This document shows, piece by piece, positions 25,005 through 41,556 of a DNA stretch of 64,000 nt. The notes below the pieces were generated by a model. That model was not told where the DNA came from. It was given only the letters and a program-made list of their open reading frames with translations, and did not search any database. A program made the translations under genes and the position numbers. Numbering within the stretch: the stretch's first letter is position 1; every line of letters begins with the position of its first letter. Source of the DNA: Emticicia sp. C21 (GTDB lineage Bacteria > Bacteroidota > Bacteroidia > Cytophagales > Spirosomataceae); NCBI RefSeq assembly GCF_003418935.1, contig NZ_QVMT01000001.1, forward strand, positions 660,063 to 724,062. The letters are read 5' to 3'.

Positions 25005-27146
25005 CTACTTTGTTGTTTTAATGTCTGTACCTAGTCTTTGCAAGTAAGCAATCAGAGCTATGATTTCCTTATCACTATTAGTCTTGATTTTTGCATCTGC
25101 CAGACTTTTGGCGATTTCATTGGCTTGTTTTTCTGCTTCTGCTACAGCTATATCTTCATAACCATCCGGGTATGGTACACCCAATGTACGCATCGCTTTT
25201 ATCTTGGCAGGCAACAGCTCCTTATCATAATCATTCTCCAAAAGCCAGGGGTAAGGCGGCATAATTGAACCGGGCGACATGGTAGTCGGGTCCATCATGT
25301 GGTTATAGTGCCAGCTATCAGGATATTTTTTACCGACTCTGTGCAAATCAGGACCTGTACGTTTTGAACCCCATAAGAACGGGTGGTCATAGACAAATTC
25401 TCCGGCCTTTGAATATTCGCCATAACGCTCGGTTTCTGAACGGAAAGGACGAACCATCTGCGAGTGGCACCCTACACATCCCTCTTTTATATAAATATCA
25501 CGGCCAGTCAACTCAAGAGGGGTGTAAGGTTTTACAGCTTCAATTGTTGGTATATTAGAGTCTATCAGCGCAGTTGGCACAAACTCTATTACACCACCTA
25601 TAATCACAGCAATGAGGGCTAATCCAGTAAATATTACGGGTTTGCGTTCTAATACTGAGTGCCAGTTGCCACCTGTTACTCGCACATGTTTTTCAAGTGC
25701 AGGGGCTTCAGCATATTCGGCAGGCACAAATGTACCTTGTTGCGCAGTTTTAATCAGGTTATAAATCATTACCAGCGTACCCAAAAGGAACATCGTTCCA
25801 CCCACCGCTCTCATCATATATAAAGGCACAATTTGTGTTACAGTTTCCAGGAAGTTTGGATAAGCCAGAAAGCCATCTTGTGTAAACTCTTTCCACATCA
25901 GACTTTGAACAAACCCGGCCCAGTACATCGGCAAAGCATAGAAAATAATCCCTAAAGTGCCTAGCCAGAAGTGCGTATTAGTCAAAGTTTTAGAGTAAAG
26001 TTTGGTTTGATACATGCGAGGTATCAGATAATATAAGATACCGAATATCATGAAACCATTCCAACCCAGTGCCCCAACGTGTACGTGGGCAATTGTCCAG
26101 TCAGTAAAGTGAGAGATGGCGTTTACGTTTTTCAACGATAGCATCGGGCCCTCGAATGTAGCCATACCGTAGGCGGTAACAGCTACCACAAAGAATTTCA
26201 AAACAGGGTCTTCACGTACTTTATCCCAGGCACCACGTAGAGTCAACAGACCGTTTAACATACCTCCCCAGGATGGTGCAATGAGCATAATTGAGAACAC
26301 TGTTCCCAGGCTTTGTGCCCAGTCAGGTAATGAGGTATATAACAAGTGGTGAGGCCCGGCCCAGATATAAATAAATATCAAAGACCAGAAGTGAATAATT
26401 GATAACTTATAGGAGTATACGGGGCGATTAGCTGCTTTCGGTAAGAAGTAGTACATCAAACCCAGATAAGGAGTTGTCAGGAAGAATGCTACGGCATTAT
26501 GACCATACCACCATTGTACCAGCGCATCCTGTACACCTGCGTATAACGAATAACTTTTTGTCCACGATACCGGTAACTCCAAAGAGTTGACAATATGTAA
26601 TAAAGCTACCGTAACCACTGTACCTATATAGAACCAAACGGCTACATACATGTGGCGTTCGCGACGTTTGATGATCGTACCAAACATATTAATGGCAAAA
26701 ACTACCCATATTACAGTGATAGCAATATCAATTGGCCATTCCAATTCGGCATATTCTTTACTGGTAGTCATCCCTAAAGGCAAGGTAATAGCTGCTGCCA
26801 GAATAATTAATTGCCAGCCCCAGAAGTGAATCCATGAAAGCGCCTGGCTATACATGGCGGTTTTTAATAGTCTCGGCAATGAGTAGTAAATACCCGCAAA
26901 CATGGCATTACCTACAAAAGCAAAAATAATGGCATTGGTGTGTAAAGGTCTGAGACGCCCAAAGGTCACGTGAGGGTTTTCAAAATTGGCTCCGGGCCAG
27001 AAAAGCTGTATGGCCAGGGTTAGTCCGGCTAACATACCAACTAAACCAAATATGACTGTTACGATCAGAAAGGCTTTCACGATTTTATTATCGTATTCAA
27101 ATCGTTCTAATGTCCCTACTGGTTCAGGCTGCGTAATATACTGCAT
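25005..27146 (-). CDS. ccoN: Fused cbb3-type cytochrome oxidase subunits I and II (CcoNO)
   Basis: Predicted 713-aa catalytic core of the high-affinity haem-copper oxidase. The start at 27146 (MQYITQPEPVGTLERFEYD) is chosen because the upstream in-frame extension has no homology pattern and contains the promoter. The CcoN part (about 1-500) has the haem/copper histidines in RPLHTNAIIF, WWYGHNAVAFF, GPHHLLYTSLPDW and HFTDWTIAHVHVGALGWN. A short linker and transmembrane helix then join it to a CcoO part with CVGCH and GTGPDLH-type motifs (TGPDLHRVGKKYPDSWHYNHMMDP) and the MPPYPWL Met ligand. The N-O fusion is normal in Bacteroidota. It has its own promoter with a TGA-N6-TCA site. Confidence 0.96.
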   Translation of the reverse strand: MQYITQPEPVGTLERFEYDNKIVKAFLIVTVIFGLVGMLAGLTLAIQLFWPGANFENPHVTFGRLRPLHTNAIIFAFVGNAMFAGIYYSLPRLLKTAMYSQALSWIHFWGWQLIILAAAITLPLGMTTSKEYAELEWPIDIAITVIWVVFAINMFGTIIKRRERHMYVAVWFYIGTVVTVALLHIVNSLELPVSWTKSYSLYAGVQDALVQWWYGHNAVAFFLTTPYLGLMYYFLPKAANRPVYSYKLSIIHFWSLIFIYIWAGPHHLLYTSLPDWAQSLGTVFSIMLIAPSWGGMLNGLLTLRGAWDKVREDPVLKFFVVAVTAYGMATFEGPMLSLKNVNAISHFTDWTIAHVHVGALGWNGFMIFGILYYLIPRMYQTKLYSKTLTNTHFWLGTLGIIFYALPMYWAGFVQSLMWKEFTQDGFLAYPNFLETVTQIVPLYMMRAVGGTMFLLGTLVMIYNLIKTAQQGTFVPAEYAEAPALEKHVRVTGGNWHSVLERKPVIFTGLALIAVIIGGVIEFVPTALIDSNIPTIEAVKPYTPLELTGRDIYIKEGCVGCHSQMVRPFRSETERYGEYSKAGEFVYDHPFLWGSKRTGPDLHRVGKKYPDSWHYNHMMDPTTMSPGSIMPPYPWLLENDYDKELLPAKIKAMRTLGVPYPDGYEDIAVAEAEKQANEIAKSLADAKIKTNSDKEIIALIAYLQRLGTDIKTTK

Positions 27147-27178: not shown

Positions 27179-27243
27179 CAAAATTACCTCTGGCTTCATG
27201 CCTAAAACATGACCAGAGTTTTGTGGAAATATGACATTTGTCA
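27179..27243 (-). promoter_or_regulatory. ccoNO promoter with Fnr/Crp-type palindrome
   Basis: On the - strand, TGACAAATGTCA (27243 to 27232) lies 57 bases upstream of a TAATTTTG -7 box (27186 to 27179), which is about 33 bases before the ccoN start codon. Palindrome and box are arranged identically at the usp and desaturase promoters. Confidence 0.8.
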
Positions 27244-27270
27244 TAATTTCCTTTGAGATTGGGGGCGTGT

Positions 27271-27663
27271 TTAGCCAATACCGATTGTCTCTGAATTAGC
27301 GATAAATGTTCTGAACTTAGACTTTACAGACCGATAGTCTTGTTCAAAATAGTCCATTTCTTCTTTCAGATACTGAAAATCAAGCTTTTGTTCTTTATCA
27401 AGAATATTATCATGAAGCACTCCCTCAGCCACACCCTTCTCAACACTTCTTAATTCTTCCTGTATCTGTTTGATTAATCGCTGAAAATGATGAAACTGAT
27501 TAATGAACCAGTTCTGTTCGGTTTTTCCGGTTGTTTTTTCAAGCGCGGCAATCTCTTCAATAATGCTCAGGAAGAAATCTGTTTCTTTCTGCATCATTTC
27601 TAATTCATTCCGCCACAAACTGTATTGAAAATGCGTATGGCTTAGTTGAGAGTACTTGTTCAT
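27271..27663 (-). CDS. Conserved hypothetical helical protein
   Basis: Predicted 130-aa cytoplasmic protein, not recognised. It is almost entirely helical and charged, with coiled-coil-like heptads (QFHHFQRLIKQIQEELRSVEKG and LDFQYLKEEMDYFEQDYRSVKSKFR). It has no signal peptide, cysteine motif or catalytic signature. Its start is 37 bases after the stop of the universal stress protein gene, so both are probably transcribed from the usp promoter, and it directly precedes the ccoNO promoter. Co-regulation with micro-oxic genes is inferred from that arrangement. Confidence 0.6.
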   Translation of the reverse strand: MNKYSQLSHTHFQYSLWRNELEMMQKETDFFLSIIEEIAALEKTTGKTEQNWFINQFHHFQRLIKQIQEELRSVEKGVAEGVLHDNILDKEQKLDFQYLKEEMDYFEQDYRSVKSKFRTFIANSETIGIG

Positions 27664-27699
27664 GTTTTAGAATTTTAGGTTATCAATATGAAAGGCTAA

Positions 27700-28563
27700 T
27701 TAAAAAGTAACCAATTCATTCTCCGGTACTTCTTCCTGAGCATAATCATATATGCTCAGCAAAGGGACTATAGGATTGAACGCAAACCTACGTGTAACAG
27801 AGCGATTGAAGAGCACATCGAAAAATGAATGATGGCGGGTAAGCATTACCAGCATATCGGCTTCATGGGAGCTCAGATACTCAACGATACCTTCTTCCAC
27901 ATTGTCTGCATGCAATTGGTAATCTATAATACCTACACCCTTGAAATAATCGTGATATTCATATTTCAACAAACCATCCAGTTCGGTGGGAAACTGTCCG
28001 TCTTTCAGTATGGTCAATAAGGTGAGCGTAGCATTTTCTTTAAGCAATAGTTCTTTTAAACCATCGAATTCAGTGAATGAGTTGATAGTTTTATAGTCGA
28101 CAGCTAATACGATATTTCTGATTGGTTCTAGTTGCGTTTTTACAGGTATTATAATGGTGTTGGCAGGTACGTTTCGCACCACATCTGTAGCAGTGCTACC
28201 AAACCAAATATCTTCACCTGTGCCTGTAGCACCTATTATGACAAAATCATAATCATGTTGCTGATTAAGAATCTGAATAGCACTGGCCGGAGAACCGGAA
28301 ACCAGTTCAGCCTTGAAAGTGTGTATTCCTTCGGTGTCCAATTGTTTGGCAGCTTCTATATATTCTCCTATTTCCTTTTTCGCCCGGTTATACATTTCAT
28401 CAATCAGCACATAAGCCAATTCAGGAATGCCACCTCCGGGGAAAGTATCATAGGCGTGCATAAGGGTAAACTCGCAAGGGGTATGACTAAACAGGTTGAA
28501 AGCATAGGCAATGGCTTTGTCTGATGCCTCAGAGAAATCGGTTGGAAGAAGTATCTTTTTCAT
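27700..28563 (-). CDS. Universal stress protein, tandem UspA domains
   Basis: Predicted 287-aa cytoplasmic protein made of two UspA-like domains (about 1-145 and 150-285). Domain one starts MKKILLPTDFSEASDKAIAYA and has the ATP-binding-like loop GATGTGEDIWFGSTATDVVRN. The second domain is more diverged and lacks a full G-x2-G-x9-GS/T motif. Tandem Usp proteins are common in Bacteroidota and often rise under low oxygen. Its promoter carries the same TGA-N6-TCA/TAATTTTG arrangement as ccoNO, and the gene lies inside the cbb3 cluster. Confidence 0.92.
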   Translation of the reverse strand: MKKILLPTDFSEASDKAIAYAFNLFSHTPCEFTLMHAYDTFPGGGIPELAYVLIDEMYNRAKKEIGEYIEAAKQLDTEGIHTFKAELVSGSPASAIQILNQQHDYDFVIIGATGTGEDIWFGSTATDVVRNVPANTIIIPVKTQLEPIRNIVLAVDYKTINSFTEFDGLKELLLKENATLTLLTILKDGQFPTELDGLLKYEYHDYFKGVGIIDYQLHADNVEEGIVEYLSSHEADMLVMLTRHHSFFDVLFNRSVTRRFAFNPIVPLLSIYDYAQEEVPENELVTF

Positions 28564-28588
28564 GTTGGTTTCGATTAATTTGATACTA

Positions 28589-28653
28589 CAAAATTAACGG
28601 AGCCTTCATAGGCATTTTATGAGCAGATAGACATACTAATATGATATATATCA
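28589..28653 (-). promoter_or_regulatory. usp promoter with Fnr/Crp-type palindrome
   Basis: On the - strand, TGATATATATCA (28653 to 28642) lies 57 bases upstream of TAATTTTG (28596 to 28589), about 26 bases before the usp start codon. Spacing and -7 sequence are identical to those at ccoNO and the desaturase gene. Confidence 0.8.
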
Positions 28654-28654
28654 G

Positions 28655-28687
28655 AAAAAAAGACAGGCAGTACCCGTCTTTTTCTGT
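28655..28687 (-). terminator. Terminator after the 281-aa gene
   Basis: On the - strand, GACGGG pairs with CCTGTC (one G-U pair) around a short loop, followed by a run of seven T. It lies about 35 bases beyond the stop of the gene at 28723 and separates it from the usp promoter. Confidence 0.65.
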
Positions 28688-28722
28688 CAACACGAACCTA
28701 AATTTTCTATTCTAAGAAAATT

Positions 28723-29568
28723 CTATTTTTTCATTAAATGATGTCCGATAATGGGTTGATTAAACTCTTCGCAAGCTGTATTCTTCAATCTATTGGCAAA
28801 GCAGGGCACAAGTAAACTTTCAACTTCATCTATCCTGAATTTTAATACAATTCCTTTGCTGCTGTTTAATATATCGTTGTTGAGGTATACCACCAGATTA
28901 TTATTAGCTAAACCCAGTTGACGGGTATAGGCCTTCCAGTCATTCACCAGATTGAGCTTTTGTTTATTTACCTTCTTTTCGATGGCGGTAAAAAAGGCAG
29001 CCTGTGATTTTTCATCCTGTTTGATAATATCACCCTCCTGCAAAAATCTTTTTCCTCTCAGGTCATATATCTCCCAGTCCTGATTTTCCAGGCAATAGGA
29101 CTTTTCATCCTTGCAATTACCTTCGTGCAGATAAAAACCTAATAAGTCGTTTTGCAGATGGGTTACTCTGGTTGCTTTATAATAATAATGGTACGACTGA
29201 AAATCATAACACTCTTTATCTCCCTCACAATTACCGAAGTAGGTCATGCCTGATAACCAATCATTCAGAAAATCCTGTGTTTGTGTATCCAACATTCCAC
29301 TTAACTGGGCATGAGAAGTTTTCCAGGTACAATCTAATTCTTCATCTCTTTGAACCAACAATACATTTTTTACTGCAATAGAAGCTCTATTATTAATAAA
29401 CTTTTCATTGGCAGGTATTTTCGAGAAATCAACCTGTGCATGGCAGTTTTGGGCAATAAAGAAAAAAATTACTAATATTAGAATACCAACAAAAGCACTT
29501 GATTCGAGTACGAAAGTGACTGACTTCTTAATATACTGATAGATGTTTCTATGCGATTTAGACTTCAT
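28723..29568 (-). CDS. Hypothetical exported/anchored protein of the cbb3 cluster
   Basis: Predicted 281-aa protein, not recognised with confidence. A basic N-terminus and hydrophobic stretch (about 24-42, AFVGILILVIFFFIAQ) form a signal or anchor with a possible cleavage at CHAQ. The mature part contains about eight cysteines, several in pairs (CEGDKEC, CKDEKSYC) that could form disulfides in the periplasm. The pattern HYYYK...GFYLHEGNC...YDLRGKRFLQEGDIIK faintly recalls DUF3298-type proteins. It follows ccoS by 62 bases and ends at a terminator, so it is probably the last gene of the desaturase-ccoI-ccoS unit. Confidence 0.5.
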   Translation of the reverse strand: MKSKSHRNIYQYIKKSVTFVLESSAFVGILILVIFFFIAQNCHAQVDFSKIPANEKFINNRASIAVKNVLLVQRDEELDCTWKTSHAQLSGMLDTQTQDFLNDWLSGMTYFGNCEGDKECYDFQSYHYYYKATRVTHLQNDLLGFYLHEGNCKDEKSYCLENQDWEIYDLRGKRFLQEGDIIKQDEKSQAAFFTAIEKKVNKQKLNLVNDWKAYTRQLGLANNNLVVYLNNDILNSSKGIVLKFRIDEVESLLVPCFANRLKNTACEEFNQPIIGHHLMKK

Positions 29569-29630
29569 GATAGATGATTGATTAGATGAACAAAGCTAAG
29601 GCGCTCTACTCAACTAAAATCTATCTTACC

Positions 29631-29798
29631 TCATGCCGACTTATGATTTTCGGCAGGTTTTTCTTCGTCAAATAAAATCCTGATTGATGGCGTATAGGTA
29701 TCATCAAACTGCCCATCATTGGTAGCCCAGAAGAATGAGATTAGAAAGCCTCCGGCCACCAATAACGCTGCTATTACTAAAAATATAATGACTGCCAT
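29631..29798 (-). CDS. ccoS: CcoS, cbb3 oxidase assembly protein (55 aa)
   Basis: Short 55-residue frame immediately after ccoI (its ATG begins two bases past that stop). It begins MAVIIFLVIAALLVAGGFLI, one transmembrane helix, followed by the CcoS signature FFWATNDGQFDDTYTPSIRI, where DGQFDD-x4-P-x2-RIL is diagnostic. CcoS is needed to insert haem and copper into cbb3 oxidase and always accompanies the CcoI ATPase. It is below the length cut-off of many gene callers. Confidence 0.93.
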   Translation of the reverse strand: MAVIIFLVIAALLVAGGFLISFFWATNDGQFDDTYTPSIRILFDEEKPAENHKSA

Positions 29799-29800
29799 GG

Positions 29801-32206
29801 CTAGATCAATTTTTTAAGTTTGGCAAAAAGATAGGTCATCCCTACCGCAAATAATACTACTGATAACGAACTCAAAGGCATAAAGATAGCTGCCATAACT
29901 GGCGATAGTTTACCTGATACCGCCCAACCTATACCTATAAAATTATAGATTACTGATAATAAAAAACTGGCCTTTACAATCCGCAAAGCCTTTTTACTAA
30001 AGCCCAGAAAATCTGTTAATCTATTGAATTGCGAAGCGTCCAGTATAGCATCACAGGCTGGCGAGAATGCCTGCACATCTTCACTCAGGGCTATGCCTAC
30101 ATTGCTCTGGCGCAATGCTCCTGCATCGTTCAGGCCGTCTCCTATCATCAATACATGTTTACCTTCTTCCTGTTCTCTTTTAATATAATCAAGTTTATCC
30201 TGTGGTTTCTGATTAAACAACAGTCGCGACTTATCAAAAAACGGACTCAGGTTTTCTTTTTCTTCATCATTATCGCCAGATACCAAAGCCATTTTGAAAT
30301 TTTTCTGTATCTGTTGTAAAACCTCTTTCCAGTTTTTCCGGTATTCCGATTTTATAGTAAAATAACCCCTATACTCGCGATTTATCTCGACATTTACTTG
30401 ACTGGCACTCACTCCACTAATCGGTAATCCTAGAAACTCAGCATTACCTAATCTGATGAAATTCCTATCAACTATCCCCTCAACCCCCATTCCTTTTATC
30501 TCATTATAATAGCTGATAATTCCTTTGCCAACCCCTAAATATTGATATATCATTTTACTAAGTGGGTGCACCGATTGGGCAGCTAATTGTCCGATCCAGC
30601 TTTTCTCCTGCTCTTTTAATTGTCCGTCTACAAAATGCAATTGTCCATTTTTATTTTCTGTAAGTGTTCCGGTTTTATCAAATACCACCTCGTTTATCTC
30701 GGTTAATAGCTGGACAACCATCTGATTTTTTACAAAAAACTTATTTCTGCCAAAAATACCCATCGTGGTATTCATTGTAAAAGGCATAGATAATGTGAGT
30801 GCGCATGGACAGGCAACCATCAATACTGCAGTTACACTTTTCCAGATCAATTCTGGTTGAACAAAATACCAGTAAACACCTGTAGCTAAAGCAATCAATA
30901 ATGCAGTATAAGTGAAGTACTTGCTAAAGGCATTGGCTAAATCTATGGTAGGCGTTCTCTTTTCTTTTTTAAAGGCATCATTATTCCACAACTCAGTCAG
31001 ATAGCTTTGCGAAACCTGTTTTTGTACGGTCAGATACACTTTCTCGCCAATTAATCTGCCACCTGCATAAATCAACTCCCCTTTTTCTTTTTTAATAGGT
31101 TCCGATTCACCTGTCACAAAACTATAATCAATATAAGCTCTATCTGAAATCAGAAGCGAGTCAGCCGGTATCAATTCCTGATTATGTATATCTATTATAT
31201 CACCCTTTTGTAGTTCAGATACATTCTTGTAACCACCTCTGGCTTTCACAGCCAATGGGAAATAAGATTTATAGTTACGCTCGAAAGACAAATAATTATA
31301 AGTCATCTGCTGCACCCATTTTCCTGTCAGTAAGAAGAAAACCAATCCGGCCAGACTATCCCAGTATCCAGCCGAATGATTGACAAAGGTTTCAAAACTA
31401 CTTCTGACAAATAATGCGGTAATACCCAAAGCAATAGGAATATCAACGCTCAGGACATTGGTTTTACGTTTCAGGTTTTCTTTAACAGAAATAATCGCCC
31501 CTTTCAAATAGTCAGAAGCACCAAAGAAGAAGACAGGGAGTGATAGCAAAAAGTTGAGATATAAGAAGAATCGCTGATAGGCAGCATCAACCAGATTATT
31601 AAGGTCTAATTTAAAATATTCGGGAAAACTGAGGAGCATTATATTACCCATACAGAATCCCACTACCCCAATCTGTAAAATCAATCGCCTTTGCACTTTA
31701 TTTTGTTTAGGCTGATGCTCGGCGCTTTGCAGGTTTATCAATGGCTCATAGCCTAGCGTAGCCAGTAGCTCTATGATAGTTTGTAAATTGACTTTTGCAG
31801 GGTCATAGCTTAATGATAATTCTTTACGCAGGAAATTGAGCCTCGCCGTAAAGATACCTGTCTGAATCTTATTGAAGTTTTCAAGCAACCAAACACAAGA
31901 ACTACAATGTATAGCCGGAATAAACAAAGTTACCTTCTTTATGCTCTCACTCTGGAAATCCAGCAATTGAGCCTGTATTTTTTCATCAGCCAGATAGTCA
32001 AACTTGCCGTTAAAATTGGAAGACTTCAAGCTAATACCTGCGTGCTGATTCAGGTCATAATACGAACATAAGTTATTGTCTTGCAGAATTTCATAAACAG
32101 TCTTACAGCCATGGCAACAAAAATGTTTGTCTTCCAACATAATCGGGCTGTCGGCACAATCATCACCGCAGTGATAGCAGGCTATTTTGGTTTCATTGAG
32201 TGTCAT
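29801..32206 (-). CDS. ccoI: Copper-exporting P-type ATPase CcoI (FixI) for cbb3 maturation
   Basis: Predicted 801-aa P1B-type ATPase. The cysteine-rich N-terminus (CYHCGDDC, CCHGC at 30-34) is typical of CcoI-type pumps. A heavy-metal-associated domain follows with CSSC at 101-104. The membrane CPC motif (MVACPCALTLSMPF), phosphorylation site DKTGT, and hinge GDGLND are all intact. CcoI moves copper to the periplasmic side for CuB assembly. It lies 18 bases behind the desaturase gene and is directly followed by ccoS, so all three should be one transcript. Confidence 0.95.
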   Translation of the reverse strand: MTLNETKIACYHCGDDCADSPIMLEDKHFCCHGCKTVYEILQDNNLCSYYDLNQHAGISLKSSNFNGKFDYLADEKIQAQLLDFQSESIKKVTLFIPAIHCSSCVWLLENFNKIQTGIFTARLNFLRKELSLSYDPAKVNLQTIIELLATLGYEPLINLQSAEHQPKQNKVQRRLILQIGVVGFCMGNIMLLSFPEYFKLDLNNLVDAAYQRFFLYLNFLLSLPVFFFGASDYLKGAIISVKENLKRKTNVLSVDIPIALGITALFVRSSFETFVNHSAGYWDSLAGLVFFLLTGKWVQQMTYNYLSFERNYKSYFPLAVKARGGYKNVSELQKGDIIDIHNQELIPADSLLISDRAYIDYSFVTGESEPIKKEKGELIYAGGRLIGEKVYLTVQKQVSQSYLTELWNNDAFKKEKRTPTIDLANAFSKYFTYTALLIALATGVYWYFVQPELIWKSVTAVLMVACPCALTLSMPFTMNTTMGIFGRNKFFVKNQMVVQLLTEINEVVFDKTGTLTENKNGQLHFVDGQLKEQEKSWIGQLAAQSVHPLSKMIYQYLGVGKGIISYYNEIKGMGVEGIVDRNFIRLGNAEFLGLPISGVSASQVNVEINREYRGYFTIKSEYRKNWKEVLQQIQKNFKMALVSGDNDEEKENLSPFFDKSRLLFNQKPQDKLDYIKREQEEGKHVLMIGDGLNDAGALRQSNVGIALSEDVQAFSPACDAILDASQFNRLTDFLGFSKKALRIVKASFLLSVIYNFIGIGWAVSGKLSPVMAAIFMPLSSLSVVLFAVGMTYLFAKLKKLI

Positions 32207-32224
32207 GGCTATGTTGTTTATGGC

Positions 32225-32971
32225 TTACATATAGTTCAAATCGTTATTCAATTTGAGCCTGATTACATGCAGTTTATTGAGCAATAAAATAATTGGGTAC
32301 GTAGGGTCAAACTCATGCCACTTAATGCCGAAATTCGCCCTACCGCCCAATTTATGGTGATTGTTGTGGTAAGATTCTCCCATCATCAGGAAATCAAACG
32401 GAAGTAGGTTTTTAGCAGTATCGTTTACTTTAAAGTTGGTATAGCCATATTTATGCGCAAACCAATTGATGATAACCCCATGCACTGGCCCCATCAAAAA
32501 GTGTATTGGTAATAGCAGATAAACCCAGGGATTAGTAGCGAAATAAATATAAAACAAAGTATAAAGTACACCCCAGGCTACTCTCACGGTCCATTTATCA
32601 CCCAGGCGCTCTATGAACATCCAGTTAGGTACACCTTTCTTAAATTTCGGTTCTATATTCGCCTTATCGTTCAGTATATCATTATAATAATTCTTGGTCT
32701 TCCACATCATATGAAAGAGGTTATCGGAATAACTCGGCGAGTGCGGATCTTTTTCAGTATCGGCATAAGCATGGTGCAAGCGGTGCATGATACCATAAGC
32801 TTTGGGGCTCAGAAACGAAGACCCCTGCATAATGAAAGTAAGCACATAAAAAAACTTCTCCCATCCTTTTGACATTGTGAACATCTGGTGGGCTGCATAG
32901 CGGTGCAAAAAGAAAGTTTGTGAGAATAGTGATAAATACCAGTGGGCCAGGAAAAAAATGAGAATTGCCAT
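32225..32971 (-). CDS. Acyl-CoA (delta-9 type) fatty acid desaturase
   Basis: Predicted 248-aa integral-membrane di-iron desaturase. Three histidine boxes are complete: HRYAAH (23-28), HRLHH (63-67) and HNNHH (202-206), with hydrophobic segments between. The enzyme uses O2 and electrons to introduce a cis double bond into membrane fatty acyl chains. The protein is short next to eukaryotic SCD, but typical of bacterial forms without a fused cytochrome b5. Its promoter has the TGA-N6-TCA/TAATTTTG layout of ccoNO, and ccoI follows 18 bases later. Confidence 0.9.
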   Translation of the reverse strand: MAILIFFLAHWYLSLFSQTFFLHRYAAHQMFTMSKGWEKFFYVLTFIMQGSSFLSPKAYGIMHRLHHAYADTEKDPHSPSYSDNLFHMMWKTKNYYNDILNDKANIEPKFKKGVPNWMFIERLGDKWTVRVAWGVLYTLFYIYFATNPWVYLLLPIHFLMGPVHGVIINWFAHKYGYTNFKVNDTAKNLLPFDFLMMGESYHNNHHKLGGRANFGIKWHEFDPTYPIILLLNKLHVIRLKLNNDLNYM

Positions 32972-33001
32972 TTAAGAATAGTGTATGTATTGTTTGAGGC
33001 T

Positions 33002-33066
33002 CAAAATTAAGGCTCAGACAACAGTGCATTTATGACCAAACTCTGTCAGAAAACTGATATTTATCA
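33002..33066 (-). promoter_or_regulatory. Desaturase-ccoI-ccoS promoter with Fnr/Crp-type palindrome
   Basis: On the - strand, TGATAAATATCA (33066 to 33055) lies 57 bases upstream of TAATTTTG (33009 to 33002), about 31 bases before the desaturase start codon. This is the third copy of the same promoter architecture within 6 kb. Confidence 0.8.
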
Positions 33067-36498: not shown

Positions 36499-36846
36499 TC
36501 ATGCTATTTCTCCAAATATATTCCTACCCATACGGTTCTGGCGCTCAAGTGTCCAGTTATTGGTAAAAGACGTGTGTATCCAGGAATTACCTACTTTTCT
36601 GAAAACAGCTACCTGTAAGCCGAGTTCTTCCCAGAAAAAAGTTTCAATCTGCTCAATGGTCATAGTAGGCGAAATAATAAATACCGATGGGGTTTTCATG
36701 CTTGAGATTTCACCCAAAGTATGAAAATAATCAGCACTTACTTCGCTCCCCTTATGATATACCTCAATCCTTAAAAAAGGATAAACTTCGTTGAAAGCCC
36801 TCGCTAGCTGATTGACGGTCATATCCTTGTCAACGACAATTTTCAT
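36499..36846 (-). CDS. Hypothetical protein downstream of universal stress gene
   Basis: Predicted 115-aa cytoplasmic protein, not recognised. It begins MKIVVDKDMTVNQLARAFNE and shows an alternating beta/alpha pattern with a conserved-looking ending TNNWTLERQNRMGRNIFGEI. No signal peptide, cysteines or catalytic motif is seen. It starts 19 bases after the stop of the neighbouring universal stress gene and so is probably co-transcribed with it. The N-terminal half resembles a small ubiquitin-like or ferredoxin-like fold only in secondary structure. Confidence 0.6.
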   Translation of the reverse strand: MKIVVDKDMTVNQLARAFNEVYPFLRIEVYHKGSEVSADYFHTLGEISSMKTPSVFIISPTMTIEQIETFFWEELGLQVAVFRKVGNSWIHTSFTNNWTLERQNRMGRNIFGEIA

Positions 36847-37734: not shown

Positions 37735-37808
37735 TGAGCATTATCATAATAGGATATGATAATGCAATTAATTTTGTTGATAGTATTTTAGAAAACTGAT
37801 TTTTGTCA
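37735..37808 (+). promoter_or_regulatory. Kinase-gene promoter with two Fnr/Crp-type palindromes
   Basis: TGAGCATTATCA (37735-37746) lies 34 bases before a TAATTTTG -7 box (37769-37776). A second site, TGATTTTTGTCA (37797-37808), is just downstream of the presumed transcription start. An 8-bp inverted repeat (TTATCATA/TATGATAA, 37741-37762) overlaps the first. The layout suits activation from about -41 plus feedback repression. Confidence 0.55.
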
Positions 37809-37842: not shown

Positions 37843-39078
37843 ATGAAAAAGAATACAGACATTCTGTCGAAAGTAGCGGAAATGGATATACTACACCAAT
37901 CGGAGGCGATTTTTCTCTTTGCCACTGAAGGCATTTTAATAGCAGATAAACAAGGGAAAATTGTCAGAGTGAATCCAAGCGGTGCAGCGATGTTTGGGTA
38001 TGAACCGGAAGAACTGACCGATTTGATGATAGAAGATCTGATTCCGAATCGTTTTCGTCAGATGCACCAAACCCACCGGACAAATTTTAATGAGCATCCA
38101 CATGCAAGATCGATGGGGAGTGGTATGGATTTATACGCTAAGCGCAAAGATGACTCTGAATTTCCGGTAGAAATCAGCCTGAGTCCCTATCAGAATAGTA
38201 AGGGGGCTTATGTAATTGCTTTCGTCATAGATATTTCTATTCGTAAAGTTGCTGAAAACAAACTGGTAAGTTACAAAAATGAGTTGGAAGTAGAGGTGGA
38301 AGAACGCACCCTGGTATTGAAAGAGGCAATTCAGAAACTGGAGAAAACCAAAGACGAATTAGACAGGGCCTTGAAACGTGAACAGGAACTGAACCTGATG
38401 AAGTCGAGATTTATAACCATAGCCTCCCACGAGTTCCGTACACCTTTGGCTACTGTACTTTCTTCTCTTTCATTGGTTGAAAAATACGGTGATTTAGATG
38501 AAAATGAAAAGCGAGATAAGCATATACATCGCATTAAATCATCAGTTAGAAACCTGACAGACATACTCAACGATTTCCTATCACTCAACAAACTTGAGGA
38601 AGGAAAAGTAGTAGTAGCCCCAGAAAGCTTTATTATCAACGATTTTCTGGAAGAAATATGCCAGCAAATGCAAGGCATTGCTAAAAAGGGGCAAAAGATT
38701 GATTGTATATGTGAAACAACAGAATCGTCTTACGAAGTACGTCTTGATTCAAAACTGATTAAGAATATTATTATCAACCTTATATCAAATGCCATTAAAT
38801 TTTCGCCTGACGACTCCCGTATTCAGATAAAAGGCAGCCTTACAAACAGGCAGGTTGCTATCAGTATAAAAGATGAAGGCATTGGTATACCTGAAGCAGA
38901 AAAAAAACACGTTTTTGAAAGATTTTACCGCATGAGTAATGCCGAAGCCATACAGGGCACAGGCCTGGGTTTAAGTATTGTGAATCAATACGTATTGTTA
39001 CTGAAAGGTAAAATTGATTTTATAAGCGAAGAAAACAAGGGTACGAAGTTTATTGTGACACTACCCAGATATTTATAG
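37843..39078 (+). CDS. Soluble PAS histidine kinase
   Basis: Predicted 411-aa cytoplasmic sensor kinase with no membrane helix. The start is the ATG at 37843; an in-frame TTG six bases earlier is unlikely. An N-terminal PAS domain (about 18-135) is followed by a coiled coil (about 138-188), HisKA with phospho-acceptor H196 (ASHEFRTPLA) and HATPase_c with N box IIINLISNAIKFSP, G1 DEGIGIP and G2 GTGLGLS. His75 in PNRFRQMH aligns with the haem-ligand histidine of FixL, although FixL's downstream arginine is not conserved. The cognate regulator gene starts 21 bases after the stop. A redox or oxygen signal is inferred. Confidence 0.9.
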   Translation: MKKNTDILSKVAEMDILHQSEAIFLFATEGILIADKQGKIVRVNPSGAAMFGYEPEELTDLMIEDLIPNRFRQMHQTHRTNFNEHPHARSMGSGMDLYAKRKDDSEFPVEISLSPYQNSKGAYVIAFVIDISIRKVAENKLVSYKNELEVEVEERTLVLKEAIQKLEKTKDELDRALKREQELNLMKSRFITIASHEFRTPLATVLSSLSLVEKYGDLDENEKRDKHIHRIKSSVRNLTDILNDFLSLNKLEEGKVVVAPESFIINDFLEEICQQMQGIAKKGQKIDCICETTESSYEVRLDSKLIKNIIINLISNAIKFSPDDSRIQIKGSLTNRQVAISIKDEGIGIPEAEKKHVFERFYRMSNAEAIQGTGLGLSIVNQYVLLLKGKIDFISEENKGTKFIVTLPRYL

Positions 39079-39099: not shown

Positions 39100-40140
39100 A
39101 TGAAAAAAATCCTCTTAATCGAAGACAACGCAGAAATCAGAGAAAACACCTCTGAAATTTTAGAGTTAGACGGTTACGAAGTCCTCACAGTAGAAAACGG
39201 AAAAATAGGCGTAGATATCGCTATCAGAGAATTACCGGATTTGATTATATGTGACATTATGATGCCTGTGCTTGACGGCTATGGGGTATTGCATCTGCTC
39301 TCAAAACATGAAAAAACCTCCACTATCCCTTTCATTTTTTTAACTGCCAAAGCCGAACGCACCGATTTAAGAAAAGGAATGGATATGGGTGCTGACGACT
39401 ATATAACCAAACCTTTCGATGATGTTGAGTTGCTGAGTGCCATTGAAAGCCGCCTGCGCAAAAGAGAAGTTTCAAAAAAGCAATATTCTCAGGATATATC
39501 AGGGCTTGACCAATTGATTGCCGATGCCAATGGTGAACAGGAACTTAAGAAACTTACCGAAAATAGGGAAATAAGGTATTTTAAGAAAAAGACTGAAATC
39601 TATAGAGAGGGAGATTTCCCACTCTATTTATACTATGTAATAAAAGGGAAATTAAAAGCCTTTAAAACCAATGATGACGGCAAGGAATTTATAGTGAATC
39701 TCTATAACCCGGGAGATTTTATTGGTTATGTGGATTTGATTCAGGAAACGAATTTTACTGATACTACCGAAACCCTGGAAGACGCAGAAATCTGCCTGAT
39801 TCCTAAAAAAGACTTTAATAATCTACTACACCAAAACCCTCAGGTAGCACAGAAATTTATTCAGTTGCTATCTAAAAATATTAAAGATAATGAAGACAAT
39901 CTGCTGAAACTGGCCTATAATTCAGTCAGAAAAAGGGTGTCAGAAGCCTTGATACGTTTCTACCAAAAGAACCAGACTCCTATGAAGATAAGTCGTGAGG
40001 ACCTGGCCAGTGCCGCAGGTACCTCTCTCGAAACAGCTATCCGTACTTTATCAGATTTCAGAGATGAAAAACTGGTTGAAATTGAGTCGGGCAAAATCAC
40101 TATTCTGAACATGGAAAAACTAAAAAAGCTAAGAAATTAG
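39100..40140 (+). CDS. Response regulator: receiver fused to Crp/Fnr domain
   Basis: Predicted 346-aa cytoplasmic regulator. A receiver domain (1-122) has phospho-acceptor D52, T82 and K104. A linker leads to a cyclic-nucleotide-binding-like beta barrel (about 155-255), a dimer helix, and a Crp-type winged helix (about 285-345). The recognition helix reads E311-T-A-I-R315, matching the E-T-x-x-R of Fnr that reads TGA half-sites. The N-terminal Fe-S cysteines of Fnr are absent, so the input should be phosphorylation by the adjacent kinase. This makes it the prime candidate for binding the TGA-N6-TCA sites at ccoNO, usp, the desaturase gene and hemN. Confidence 0.93.
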   Translation: MKKILLIEDNAEIRENTSEILELDGYEVLTVENGKIGVDIAIRELPDLIICDIMMPVLDGYGVLHLLSKHEKTSTIPFIFLTAKAERTDLRKGMDMGADDYITKPFDDVELLSAIESRLRKREVSKKQYSQDISGLDQLIADANGEQELKKLTENREIRYFKKKTEIYREGDFPLYLYYVIKGKLKAFKTNDDGKEFIVNLYNPGDFIGYVDLIQETNFTDTTETLEDAEICLIPKKDFNNLLHQNPQVAQKFIQLLSKNIKDNEDNLLKLAYNSVRKRVSEALIRFYQKNQTPMKISREDLASAAGTSLETAIRTLSDFRDEKLVEIESGKITILNMEKLKKLRN

Positions 40141-40146
40141 CAAATA

Positions 40147-40189
40147 TGATTTTGCTCATATTTCTTTTTTTATCCAACTACTACTTTTG
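40147..40189 (+). promoter_or_regulatory. hemN promoter with Fnr/Crp-type site
   Basis: TGATTTTGCTCA (40147-40158) lies 35 bases before a TACTTTTG -7 box (40182-40189), placing the site near -42. This is 22 bases (two helical turns) closer than at ccoNO, as expected for a class II rather than class I arrangement. The ATG follows an AGAGGAG sequence, a rare good Shine-Dalgarno for this phylum. Confidence 0.6.
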
Positions 40190-40206: not shown

Positions 40207-41556
40207 ATGACCCAATCAGCACTTATTGAGAAGTACAATACTTCAGCACCAAGATATACGAGTTACCCGACTGTACCTTACTGGGATAATAATAGCTTTA
40301 CAGAAGCTCAATGGAAAGAGAGCTTTATTCGTACTTATAAAAACCAGAAAAAACTTAGTCTTTATATACATCTCCCGTTTTGTGAGAGTCTTTGTACTTT
40401 CTGTGCTTGTCACAAACGCATTACTATCAATCATCAGTTTGAAGTACCATATATTGAAGCTGTATTGAGAGAATGGCATATGTACCGTAGCTTGCTAAAA
40501 GAAGCACCCGAAATTGAGGAAATTCATTTAGGCGGTGGTACGCCAAGCTTTTTCTCTTCCGAAAATCTTAAAGAACTAATTGAAGGCATTCTTTCGGGCT
40601 CAAAAGTAAGCCCGACACACGAGTTTAGTTTTGAAGGCCATCCCAATAATACAACCGAAACACATCTCCAGACATTATATGATTTAGGCTTTCGCCGGGT
40701 AAGTTTTGGTGTGCAGGACTATGATCATGTCGTACAAGTAGCTATCAATCGCTTGCAGCCATTTGAGAATGTAAAGAAAGTAACCGAGTTAGCCCGAAAG
40801 ATTGGCTATACTTCTATCAGCCATGATTTAGTTTATGGCCTACCATTCCAGAATATCGAACAGTTTGAGAAAACCATCAAAAAGACTATAGAGCTTTCAC
40901 CAGATAGACTTTCATTGTACTCTTATGCACATGTGCCTTGGTTGAAAGGAAACGGACAAAGAGGTTTTGATGAAAACAATCTGCCAAGCGCAGCTGTTAA
41001 AAGACAACTATACGAATTAGGCCGGATGATTTTTGAAGCAAATGGCTATACCGAAGTGGGTATGGATCATTTTGCACGCCCAACTGATTCATTATTTAAG
41101 GCTGCTAAGGATGGCTCGCTCAACCGTAATTTCATGGGTTATACCACCTCACAATCAAAATGTATGCTTGGCTTAGGGGTTTCGGCTATTAGCGATTCAT
41201 GGACGGCTTTATCGCAGAATACCAAGAGTTTAGACGAATATATACACCTTACTAAAAATCATATTTTCCCGTTGCTGCGTGGGCATATCCAGTCGGAGAC
41301 TGATATGTTATGGAGAAACTATATCCAGAACCTGATGTGCCGATTTGAAACAGATTTTTCATCAAATGATCTCAATCAGGAGCAGATTCAACAGTTATTA
41401 GAATTGCAGGAAGATGGTATTTTGGTATTGGCTGATAATAAGGTAAGAGTAACCGAAGAGGGACGTGCGTTTATCAGAAATGTATGTACAGTTTTCGACA
41501 AGTACATTCGCCCGACAGGCAGTGTGATAACTAATACTTTTTCAAAGGCTATTTGA
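40207..41556 (+). CDS. hemN: Oxygen-independent coproporphyrinogen III oxidase
   Basis: Predicted 449-aa radical-SAM enzyme that converts coproporphyrinogen III to protoporphyrinogen IX without O2. The HemN-type motif C59-x3-C63-x2-C66-x-C68 (HLPFCESLCTFCAC) is present, together with the N-terminal APRYTSYPT trip-wire segment characteristic of true HemN rather than HemW, plus GGGTPSFF and FGVQDYDHVVQVAINRLQPF. Length matches HemN (about 450 aa). It would supply haem for the cbb3 oxidase under low oxygen, consistent with the Fnr-type site before it. It ends before a pair of duplicated terminators. Confidence 0.95.
   Translation: MTQSALIEKYNTSAPRYTSYPTVPYWDNNSFTEAQWKESFIRTYKNQKKLSLYIHLPFCESLCTFCACHKRITINHQFEVPYIEAVLREWHMYRSLLKEAPEIEEIHLGGGTPSFFSSENLKELIEGILSGSKVSPTHEFSFEGHPNNTTETHLQTLYDLGFRRVSFGVQDYDHVVQVAINRLQPFENVKKVTELARKIGYTSISHDLVYGLPFQNIEQFEKTIKKTIELSPDRLSLYSYAHVPWLKGNGQRGFDENNLPSAAVKRQLYELGRMIFEANGYTEVGMDHFARPTDSLFKAAKDGSLNRNFMGYTTSQSKCMLGLGVSAISDSWTALSQNTKSLDEYIHLTKNHIFPLLRGHIQSETDMLWRNYIQNLMCRFETDFSSNDLNQEQIQQLLELQEDGILVLADNKVRVTEEGRAFIRNVCTVFDKYIRPTGSVITNTFSKAI

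Follow-up and report, generated by a model that had tools for sequence, protein, structure and literature searches.

Tandem Crp/Fnr-type sites at cbb3 oxidase promoters of Emticicia sp. C21 and other Bacteroidota, with a receiver-Crp/Fnr protein as candidate activator

Introduction

In rhizobia, the FixL-FixJ-FixK and hFixL-FxkR-FixK systems act on fixNOQP through a PAS kinase with a heme-ligand His, a final activator of the Crp/Fnr family, and an FNR-like palindrome ahead of a cbb3 oxidase target. Each of these traits has a likely counterpart in a 64,000-nucleotide stretch of Emticicia sp. C21 (Bacteroidota; assembly GCF_003418935.1, contig NZ_QVMT01000001.1, forward-strand positions 660,063 to 724,062), the whole of which is called the window here, and whose promoters for cbb3 oxidase and neighboring genes are the subject of this study. 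However, in the window the receiver and the Crp/Fnr output are carried by one protein with no FixJ-to-FixK transcriptional step, and the promoters have a pair of sites spaced by 22 bp where the rhizobial ones have a single site, combined with a Bacteroidota -7 box. According to excerpts of PMC7888657, the rhizobial kinase route and the cysteine-cluster sensor FnrN feed the same anaerobox. By analogy, the plan described here would work like FixL-FixJ-FixK with FixJ and FixK fused, beside an FNR-like alternative, on a two-dimer promoter.

The Escherichia coli FNR site is TTGAT-N4-ATCAA. The present promoters share its TGAY-N4-RTCA core and a class II position, and the candidate regulators share the Glu and Arg of the FNR recognition helix; one of the two regulator types, which has no receiver domain, also shares the CxxC motif and the Cys122 position. 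In contrast, the outer T of the FNR half-site is not favoured (12% T among 75 tandem sites), the receiver-Crp/Fnr regulator (RR-Crp) lacks the cysteine set, and the receiver-less type lacks Cys29 and has an invariant Cys at +49 instead. In E. coli, promoters with two CRP/FNR dimers are termed class III. A pair of dimers of one regulator ahead of RNA polymerase is predicted here as well, but at a fixed 22-bp distance (-63.5/-41.5) in what may be a phylum-wide module, and we know of no such fixed-distance two-dimer rule elsewhere. Within the same phylum, HcpR/HcpR2, PgRsp, and CrpPg of Bacteroides and Porphyromonas also belong to the Crp/Fnr family (excerpts of PMC1274295 and PMC12040651). In these excerpts HcpR2 differs by its motif, GTAAC-N4-GTTAC, the targets of HcpR, PgRsp, and CrpPg are hcp and virulence genes, and no receiver domain is mentioned. 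Among the matches listed from the open-licence PubMed Central literature, no description of this regulon or architecture was found.

Results

Three promoters on the minus strand of the window, ahead of ccoNO, usp, and the desaturase-ccoI-ccoS unit, have exactly 57 nt between the start of a TGA-N6-TCA palindrome and the start of a TAnnTTTG box. The first-pass annotation of this DNA had claimed constant symmetry, constant 57-nt spacing, and an identical -7 box (TAATTTTG), all of which were borne out at 27243/27186, 28653/28596, and 33066/33009; the six inner bases of the palindrome vary, as it had implied, and its box-to-start distance of 26-33 nt came close to the 32 (ccoNO), 25 (usp), and 30 nt (desaturase) counted to the ATG. 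The palindromes lie at 27232-27243 (ccoNO, TGACAAATGTCA), 28642-28653 (usp, TGATATATATCA), and 33055-33066 (desaturase, TGATAAATATCA), and the boxes at 27179-27186, 28589-28596, and 33002-33009, respectively. The first promoter precedes a fusion of cbb3 oxidase subunits I and II (ccoNO, 25005-27146, ATG at 27146) and the second a universal stress protein gene (usp, 27700-28563; Usp, Pfam PF00582). The third precedes genes for a fatty acid desaturase (32225-32971, PF00487), the P-type ATPase CcoI of cbb3 assembly (29801-32206), and the small assembly protein CcoS (29631-29798, name and limits set by eye).

A TCA at index 32-34 from the palindrome is also common to the three promoters. It forms the downstream half of a degenerate proximal site, found at the identical place in 3/3, the upstream half being gone in 3/3: AAACTCTGGTCA at ccoNO (27210-27221, downstream TCA alone retained), TCTATCTGCTCA at usp (28620-28631, where similar usp genes of congeners have the same layout), and AGAGTTTGGTCA at the desaturase promoter (33033-33044). 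A fourth promoter, absent from the earlier annotation, serves hemN on the plus strand and has the 35-nt site alone: a single proximal-type palindrome (TGATTTTGCTCA, 40147-40158) starts 35 nt ahead of the -7 box (TACTTTTG, 40182-40189), followed by the gene for oxygen-independent coproporphyrinogen III oxidase (40207-41556, NCBIfam TIGR00538 above cut-off). All four boxes are of the Bacteroidota sigma-A type, TAnnTTTG, which excerpts of PMC9723704 place at about -12 to -5 from the start; on this numbering the sites would be centered at about -63.5 and -41.5. Their centers, 51.5 and 29.5 nt before the -7 box, have the geometry of a Crp/Fnr class II or I+II promoter, with occupancy predicted. By eye, no common TTG-type -33 element was found at the usual distance, and the proximal TCA occupies that place.

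The motif TGA-N6-TCA-N45-TAnnTTTG matched the window three times, compared with a shuffle mean of 0.02, and at least three matches were reached in 0 of 100 shuffles; the comparison with shuffled DNA that had been proposed did not refute the paired motif. With any gap of N30-60 there were six matches, the three exact ones included, against 0.72 expected; the palindrome by itself was mildly enriched (36 vs 21.9 expected). Across the 6.64-Mb genome, the half-tandem form, defined by the proximal TCA, matched without mismatch at the three window places only and with one mismatch at four further places (control, 2). By eye, three further exact 57-nt matches without the proximal TCA were present among the matches listed. 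The 35-nt class gave nine matches (control, 0), one of which is hemN; three were set aside as lying inside long open reading frames (ORFs) of the opposite strand, and the other five are plausible candidates, with PAP2, PhyH, AhpC/TSA, DinB, and a small ORF as next genes. A single 35-nt class site (L263, C8:84956-84998 of this genome) precedes an ORF of about 123 amino acids that presumably resembles truncated hemoglobin and had no Pfam or NCBIfam match.

The architecture was then compared with that of ccoNO loci elsewhere, using the best 80 of 590 candidates from one scan of named records (1.50 Mb; by title mostly Bacteroidota, with some Ignavibacteria, Verrucomicrobia, Calditrichota, and Neomarinimicrobiota). 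From TGA-N6-TCA to TAnnTTTG the distances peaked at 57 nt (45 cases) and 35 nt (44 cases); 58 nt occurred 7 times and 36 nt 4 times, the mean being 1.5 per spacing. The spacing between palindromes peaked at 22 bp (51 vs a mean of 1.0). Therefore, the common plan consists of two sites 22 bp apart. In an unbiased test of the proximal site, for which 45 promoters of relatives were picked by the distal site and -7 box only, TCA was exactly in place in 38/45, compared with 0-3 at other shifts from -8 to +8; the upstream half read TRA in 36/45 and full TGA in 23/45. Before ccoN, the best arrangement scored at least 14 of 18 in 56 of the 78 usable loci (2/80 were too short), and in 1/78 when the sequence was reversed. 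The earlier description of a class I-like palindrome centered near -64 thus holds for the distal site but is incomplete, as the conserved design has two sites, at about -63.5 and -41.5.

Among 392 genomes of the phylum, the full tandem gave 76 matches in 38 genomes and the reversed pattern none; with the box shifted by 1 nt, 12 matches were found in 7 genomes. Together with the spacing enrichment at the ccoNO loci, the 76 tandem versus 0 reversed matches support the Crp/Fnr geometry that had been proposed. Of 150 genomes of the window's family, 91 had the half-tandem form, and the control pattern gave 2 matches. We read 48 distinct family promoters, taken from 30 returned loci and 20 chosen stretches including all listed congeners. 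Twelve of them precede ccoNO, and 10 precede a usp gene similar to that of the window (47-74% identity to the window Usp, all within its genus); loss of the proximal upstream half was seen in many family relatives as well. Divergent promoters on one tandem pair occur in three genomes (G388:C22:306960-307055, G292:C1:1378362-1378457, and G064:C11:986315-986410). Each -7 box there is 23 nt from the nearer palindrome, and each dimer site is distal to one gene and proximal to the other; the partners in G388 are cytochrome c and Rrf2.

For 75 of the 76 phylum tandem promoters, which were read with the next ORF assigned mechanically, that ORF resembled a window protein in 26/75: ccoNO (6), ccoI (6), usp (4), and hemN (1), the rest of the 26 being kinases, response regulators, Crp/Fnr proteins, and relatives of the 115-amino-acid ORF described below. 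Pfam was run on ten next genes, eight from phylum tandems and two from the 80 loci, and matched D-2-hydroxyacid dehydrogenase, Hsp20, an ATP-cone protein with an Mrr-type domain, pyruvate phosphate dikinase, pyridine nucleotide-disulphide oxidoreductase, AsnA, cytochrome c, and Rrf2; two of the ten had no Pfam match. The 80 loci themselves held 75 promoters of the 57-/35-nt class, preceding ccoNO (29), hemN (6), ccoI (3), the desaturase (2), usp (2), a Crp/Fnr gene (2), other window relatives including the PAS kinase (4), and none of these (27). The desaturase relatives with a 57-nt promoter belong to two Larkinella loci (75-77% identity). Five of the six hemN relatives have the proximal site alone, and the match at hemN of L040 may be due to chance; at L125, outside the 80 loci, hemN has the tandem.

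Two conserved proteins were observed alongside these targets. One, of about 590 amino acids (HTFHIPVLGLGYS(I/V)DTP...; L081:19754-21547, L061:1233-2999, L068:1433-3202, and others), follows this promoter in 15/48 family promoters by eye, and seven others were 49-61% identical to the L081 protein. The L081 protein, which was the one tested, had no Pfam or NCBIfam match, and none was found in the window genome at E 1e-5. The other, an ORF of 115 amino acids, lies at 36499-36846 in the window, downstream of a second usp; in L152 and L070, relatives with about 29% identity to it lie behind the same promoter, and it may be part of the regulon elsewhere.

The candidate activator is encoded close to these promoters, in the order PAS histidine kinase (37843-39078, plus strand), RR-Crp 21 bp on (39100-40140, plus strand), and hemN. 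Between the second usp and the kinase gene is a weak candidate palindrome (37797-37808, no strand assigned); on neither side of it does this divergent region have a good -7 box at a distance of 57 or 35 nt. RR-Crp consists of a receiver (Response_reg, 3.9e-27) and a cNMP_binding and HTH_Crp_2 output. The phospho-acceptor Asp52 and the adjoining histidine kinase gene mark it as a two-component response regulator, with phosphotransfer predicted; Asp52 and the helix Glu are invariant in 20/20 RR-Crp proteins. An RR-Crp with receiver is encoded within 10 kb of ccoNO in 19/80 loci, and most of these 19 genes have a kinase gene beside them.

Two Crp/Fnr proteins of this genome score above the Pfam cut-off, RR-Crp and a 244-amino-acid protein (L116). 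The recognition helix of RR-Crp, GTSLETAIR, has the Glu and Arg, which in CRP/FNR contact TGA, while that of L116, CSTRQTVTQL, has neither. Helix positions 180/181 of Crp/Fnr proteins are tied to the bases read in excerpts of PMC1274295; in RR-Crp these residues are Leu, replaced by Ser or Thr in the 19 relatives, and Glu, which fits an FNR-like half-site better than a CRP-like one. We did not file RR-Crp with known families. It differs from FNR in its cysteines (two in the window protein, with Cys in 5/20 at the C122-aligned column, where four cluster Cys are needed), from CRP by score, and from FixJ in having an output domain that is not a LuxR/NarL-type helix-turn-helix; its NCBIfam scores were below cut-off for both Fnr (76.3 vs 228) and CRP (84.7 vs 266).

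RR-Crp was present (E at most 1e-50) in 59/392 genomes, namely 27/38 tandem-positive and 32/354 tandem-negative ones (odds 24.7, p 6e-17, relatedness ignored); within its own class (105 genomes, by eye) the counts were 27/6/32/40 (p 3e-4, relatedness likewise ignored). Of the 76 tandem sites, 28 have an RR-Crp gene within 20 kb, and 13 follow that gene at no more than 300 bp. This association and linkage support the first-pass proposal that the receiver-Crp/Fnr protein is the likely regulator and, with the spacing enrichment and the 76 versus 0 matches, the proposal of a defined, putatively micro-oxic regulon. In six genomes of family f7 (G025, G174, G222, G314, G320, and G382; L140, L141, and L143-L146), the tandem lies 11-15 bp after the RR-Crp gene.

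A second type of regulator was found in 15/80 loci, where a Crp/Fnr protein near ccoNO has no receiver. The set comprises 15 of 17 proteins, the divergent L074_841 and L098_15000 being left out, and all 15 have four invariant Cys (CxxC, +49, and +102 from the first) and a helix of the form GT(A/S)xE(S/T)xIR, closely similar to that of RR-Crp. The cluster cysteines of FNR are numbered C20, C23, C29, and C122. CxxC and +102 align with the C20, C23, and C122 positions in 15/15, and no Cys is found at the C29 position; the four-Cys type was therefore not filed as FNR. Ten of the 11 tandem-positive genomes without RR-Crp have this type with all four Cys. Overall, the 38 tandem-positive genomes comprise 18 with RR-Crp only, 10 with the four-Cys type only, 9 with both, and 1 with neither, so either type alone accompanies the same promoter plan. 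We rejected the idea that the tandem occurs only with RR-Crp, as the receiver-less L032, L040, L054, L071, L079, and L101 also have it. Strict mutual exclusion was rejected too: at 1e-70 the four-Cys profile matched 20 of the 59 genomes with RR-Crp (16 in f7; profile match alone) and missed the other 39. The six f7 genomes named above also match it, and their tandems beside RR-Crp precede Hsp20-like or ATP-cone genes instead of cbb3 genes, which suggests a split of tasks. In four genomes (G271, G306, G380, and G384), the four-Cys gene (L224-L227) has another, dissimilar Crp/Fnr gene without the helix Glu (L234-L237) some 200 bp away; these genomes are among the richest in tandem sites, with 4-6 each.

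The PAS domain of the window kinase aligned with the heme domains of EcDosP (3.4e-8) and FixL (1.6e-6), its best match being the kinase PAS 10jx (6e-13). Its His75 was aligned with the heme-ligand His of DosP, His77, and that column is His in 19/19 kinases (the window and 18 loci; the short fragment L041 was dropped). At the column of FixL Arg220, 9/19 kinases have Arg and the window has Met. The PAS domain of Pedobacter paludis (L061) is FixL-like (E 2.4e-31), with both the proximal His and the distal Arg of the FixL heme pocket aligned, and had an NCBIfam FixL score of 166 against a cut-off of 850; by eye, five further loci resemble it.

Discussion

These observations make it probable that the promoters form a tandem Crp/Fnr micro-oxic class, driven by RR-Crp in Emticicia sp. 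C21 and by the four-Cys type in relatives without RR-Crp. A Crp/Fnr-type dimer would bind TGAY-N4-RTCA at about -63.5, and a second dimer would occupy a weaker site in the class II position, at about -41.5, which is two helical turns (22 bp) further downstream. With this spacing both dimers would face the same side of the helix, adjacent to RNA polymerase at the TAnnTTTG -7 box. At low oxygen, the PAS kinase, its PAS probably being a heme oxygen sensor with His75 as candidate ligand, would phosphorylate RR-Crp, the most likely regulator here, and phosphorylated RR-Crp would switch on the cbb3 oxidase, its assembly operon with the desaturase, Usp, and hemN. In relatives without RR-Crp, the FNR-like four-Cys protein, with its closely similar recognition helix, would read the same sites. 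Activation at low oxygen is expected from the targets and from homology.

Several findings weigh against this reading. None of the three window promoters retains the upstream half of its proximal site, which makes dimer binding there doubtful, and the only three tandem-type promoters of the genome all lie in this cluster. Before ccoN, 22/78 loci scored below 14 of 18, some of them non-Bacteroidota by title, and 7/9 loci titled Flavobacteriaceae or its genera have only the proximal site; of the two exceptions, L046 has the tandem and L098 scored best in a poor 57-nt arrangement, with TAGTTTTA 35 nt on by eye. The tests associating RR-Crp with the tandem were uncorrected for relatedness. With the strict pattern used, 32 genomes that have RR-Crp lack an exact tandem, so regulator and promoter do not pair one to one. 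In f7, the tandems beside RR-Crp are followed by Hsp20 or ATP-cone genes and not by cbb3 genes (one Hsp20-like and one ATP-cone gene checked by Pfam, the remainder by eye), and tandem-positive G051 has neither regulator type. In the tree, RR-Crp and the four-Cys type are split on one weakly supported branch (45/87). Finally, the Met at the Arg220 column makes heme binding less certain in the window than in Pedobacter.

Some of these points invite other explanations. Chance, or gene duplication within one cluster, might be suspected as the three exact copies all lie within 6 kb, but it is refuted by the shuffle and reversed-pattern controls; moreover, the spacers between elements differ among the three promoters and the plan recurs across the phylum, leaving this explanation a negligible probability. 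The lost upstream half, in the window and in many family relatives, could instead mean that only the -63.5 palindrome is bound in this genome, as in a class I promoter, with the proximal TCA a fossil of an ancestral tandem. We consider this unlikely, because the TCA half stands at one exact position in 3/3 window promoters and 38/45 promoters of relatives, and because hemN has only the proximal site, so that the -41.5 position can serve alone. Opposed roles of the two sites, the distal one activating and the proximal one repressing, are described for the dual anaeroboxes of rhizobial fnrN (excerpts of PMC7888657). Such an arrangement seems improbable here, given that the proximal site stands alone at hemN and at 7/9 Flavobacteriaceae-titled ccoN loci, and that each dimer of the divergent pairs in G388, G292, and G064 is distal and proximal at once. 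Furthermore, with its center 29.5 bp ahead of the first base of the -7 box, the proximal site is by the class II rule at an activating position and not over the start.

The identity of the regulator and of its signal can be questioned as well. L116, the sole other Crp/Fnr protein over the Pfam cut-off in its genome, or a cAMP-CRP-like protein might serve the window promoters, but we regard this as very improbable: the L116 helix lacks the Glu and Arg that RR-Crp has, L116 falls outside the cco-linked clade in the tree, at the end of a very long branch, and the score of RR-Crp against the CRP model argues against a classical cAMP regulator. It is somewhat unlikely that the kinase responds to redox state, nitric oxide, or another ligand and not to oxygen, the regulon then being micro-oxic only in effect. 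The Met at the Arg220 column would fit such a signal, as would 10jx being the closest solved relative and the heme-binding, redox- and nitrosative-stress-responsive Crp/Fnr proteins of Porphyromonas (excerpts of PMC12040651). However, among the targets are HemN, which is oxygen-independent, a high-affinity oxidase, and D-2-hydroxyacid dehydrogenases; the kinase of Pedobacter paludis resembles FixL, and cbb3 and heme genes of Flavobacterium psychrophilum go up at oxygen limitation (excerpts of PMC9723704). We favor the tandem micro-oxic promoter class with a probable oxygen-sensing kinase.

More broadly, the tandem may be a phylum-wide two-dimer module with interchangeable sensors, either a FixL-like heme kinase with RR-Crp or an Fe-S Crp/Fnr protein with a relocated third Cys, in which the sensor was swapped and the promoter code and helix stayed nearly fixed; we see the case for this extension as evenly balanced. 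Oxygen regulation seems little mapped in Bacteroidota, although these bacteria rely on high-affinity cbb3 oxidases in habitats such as soils, waters, biofilms, and hosts. Because it is rigid and can be searched for, the promoter code would provide a predicted regulon for many genomes, with likely regulators named. It may also offer a natural experiment, in which sensors are exchanged while promoters remain unchanged, and a well-defined arrangement of two dimers on the unusual promoters of Bacteroidota.

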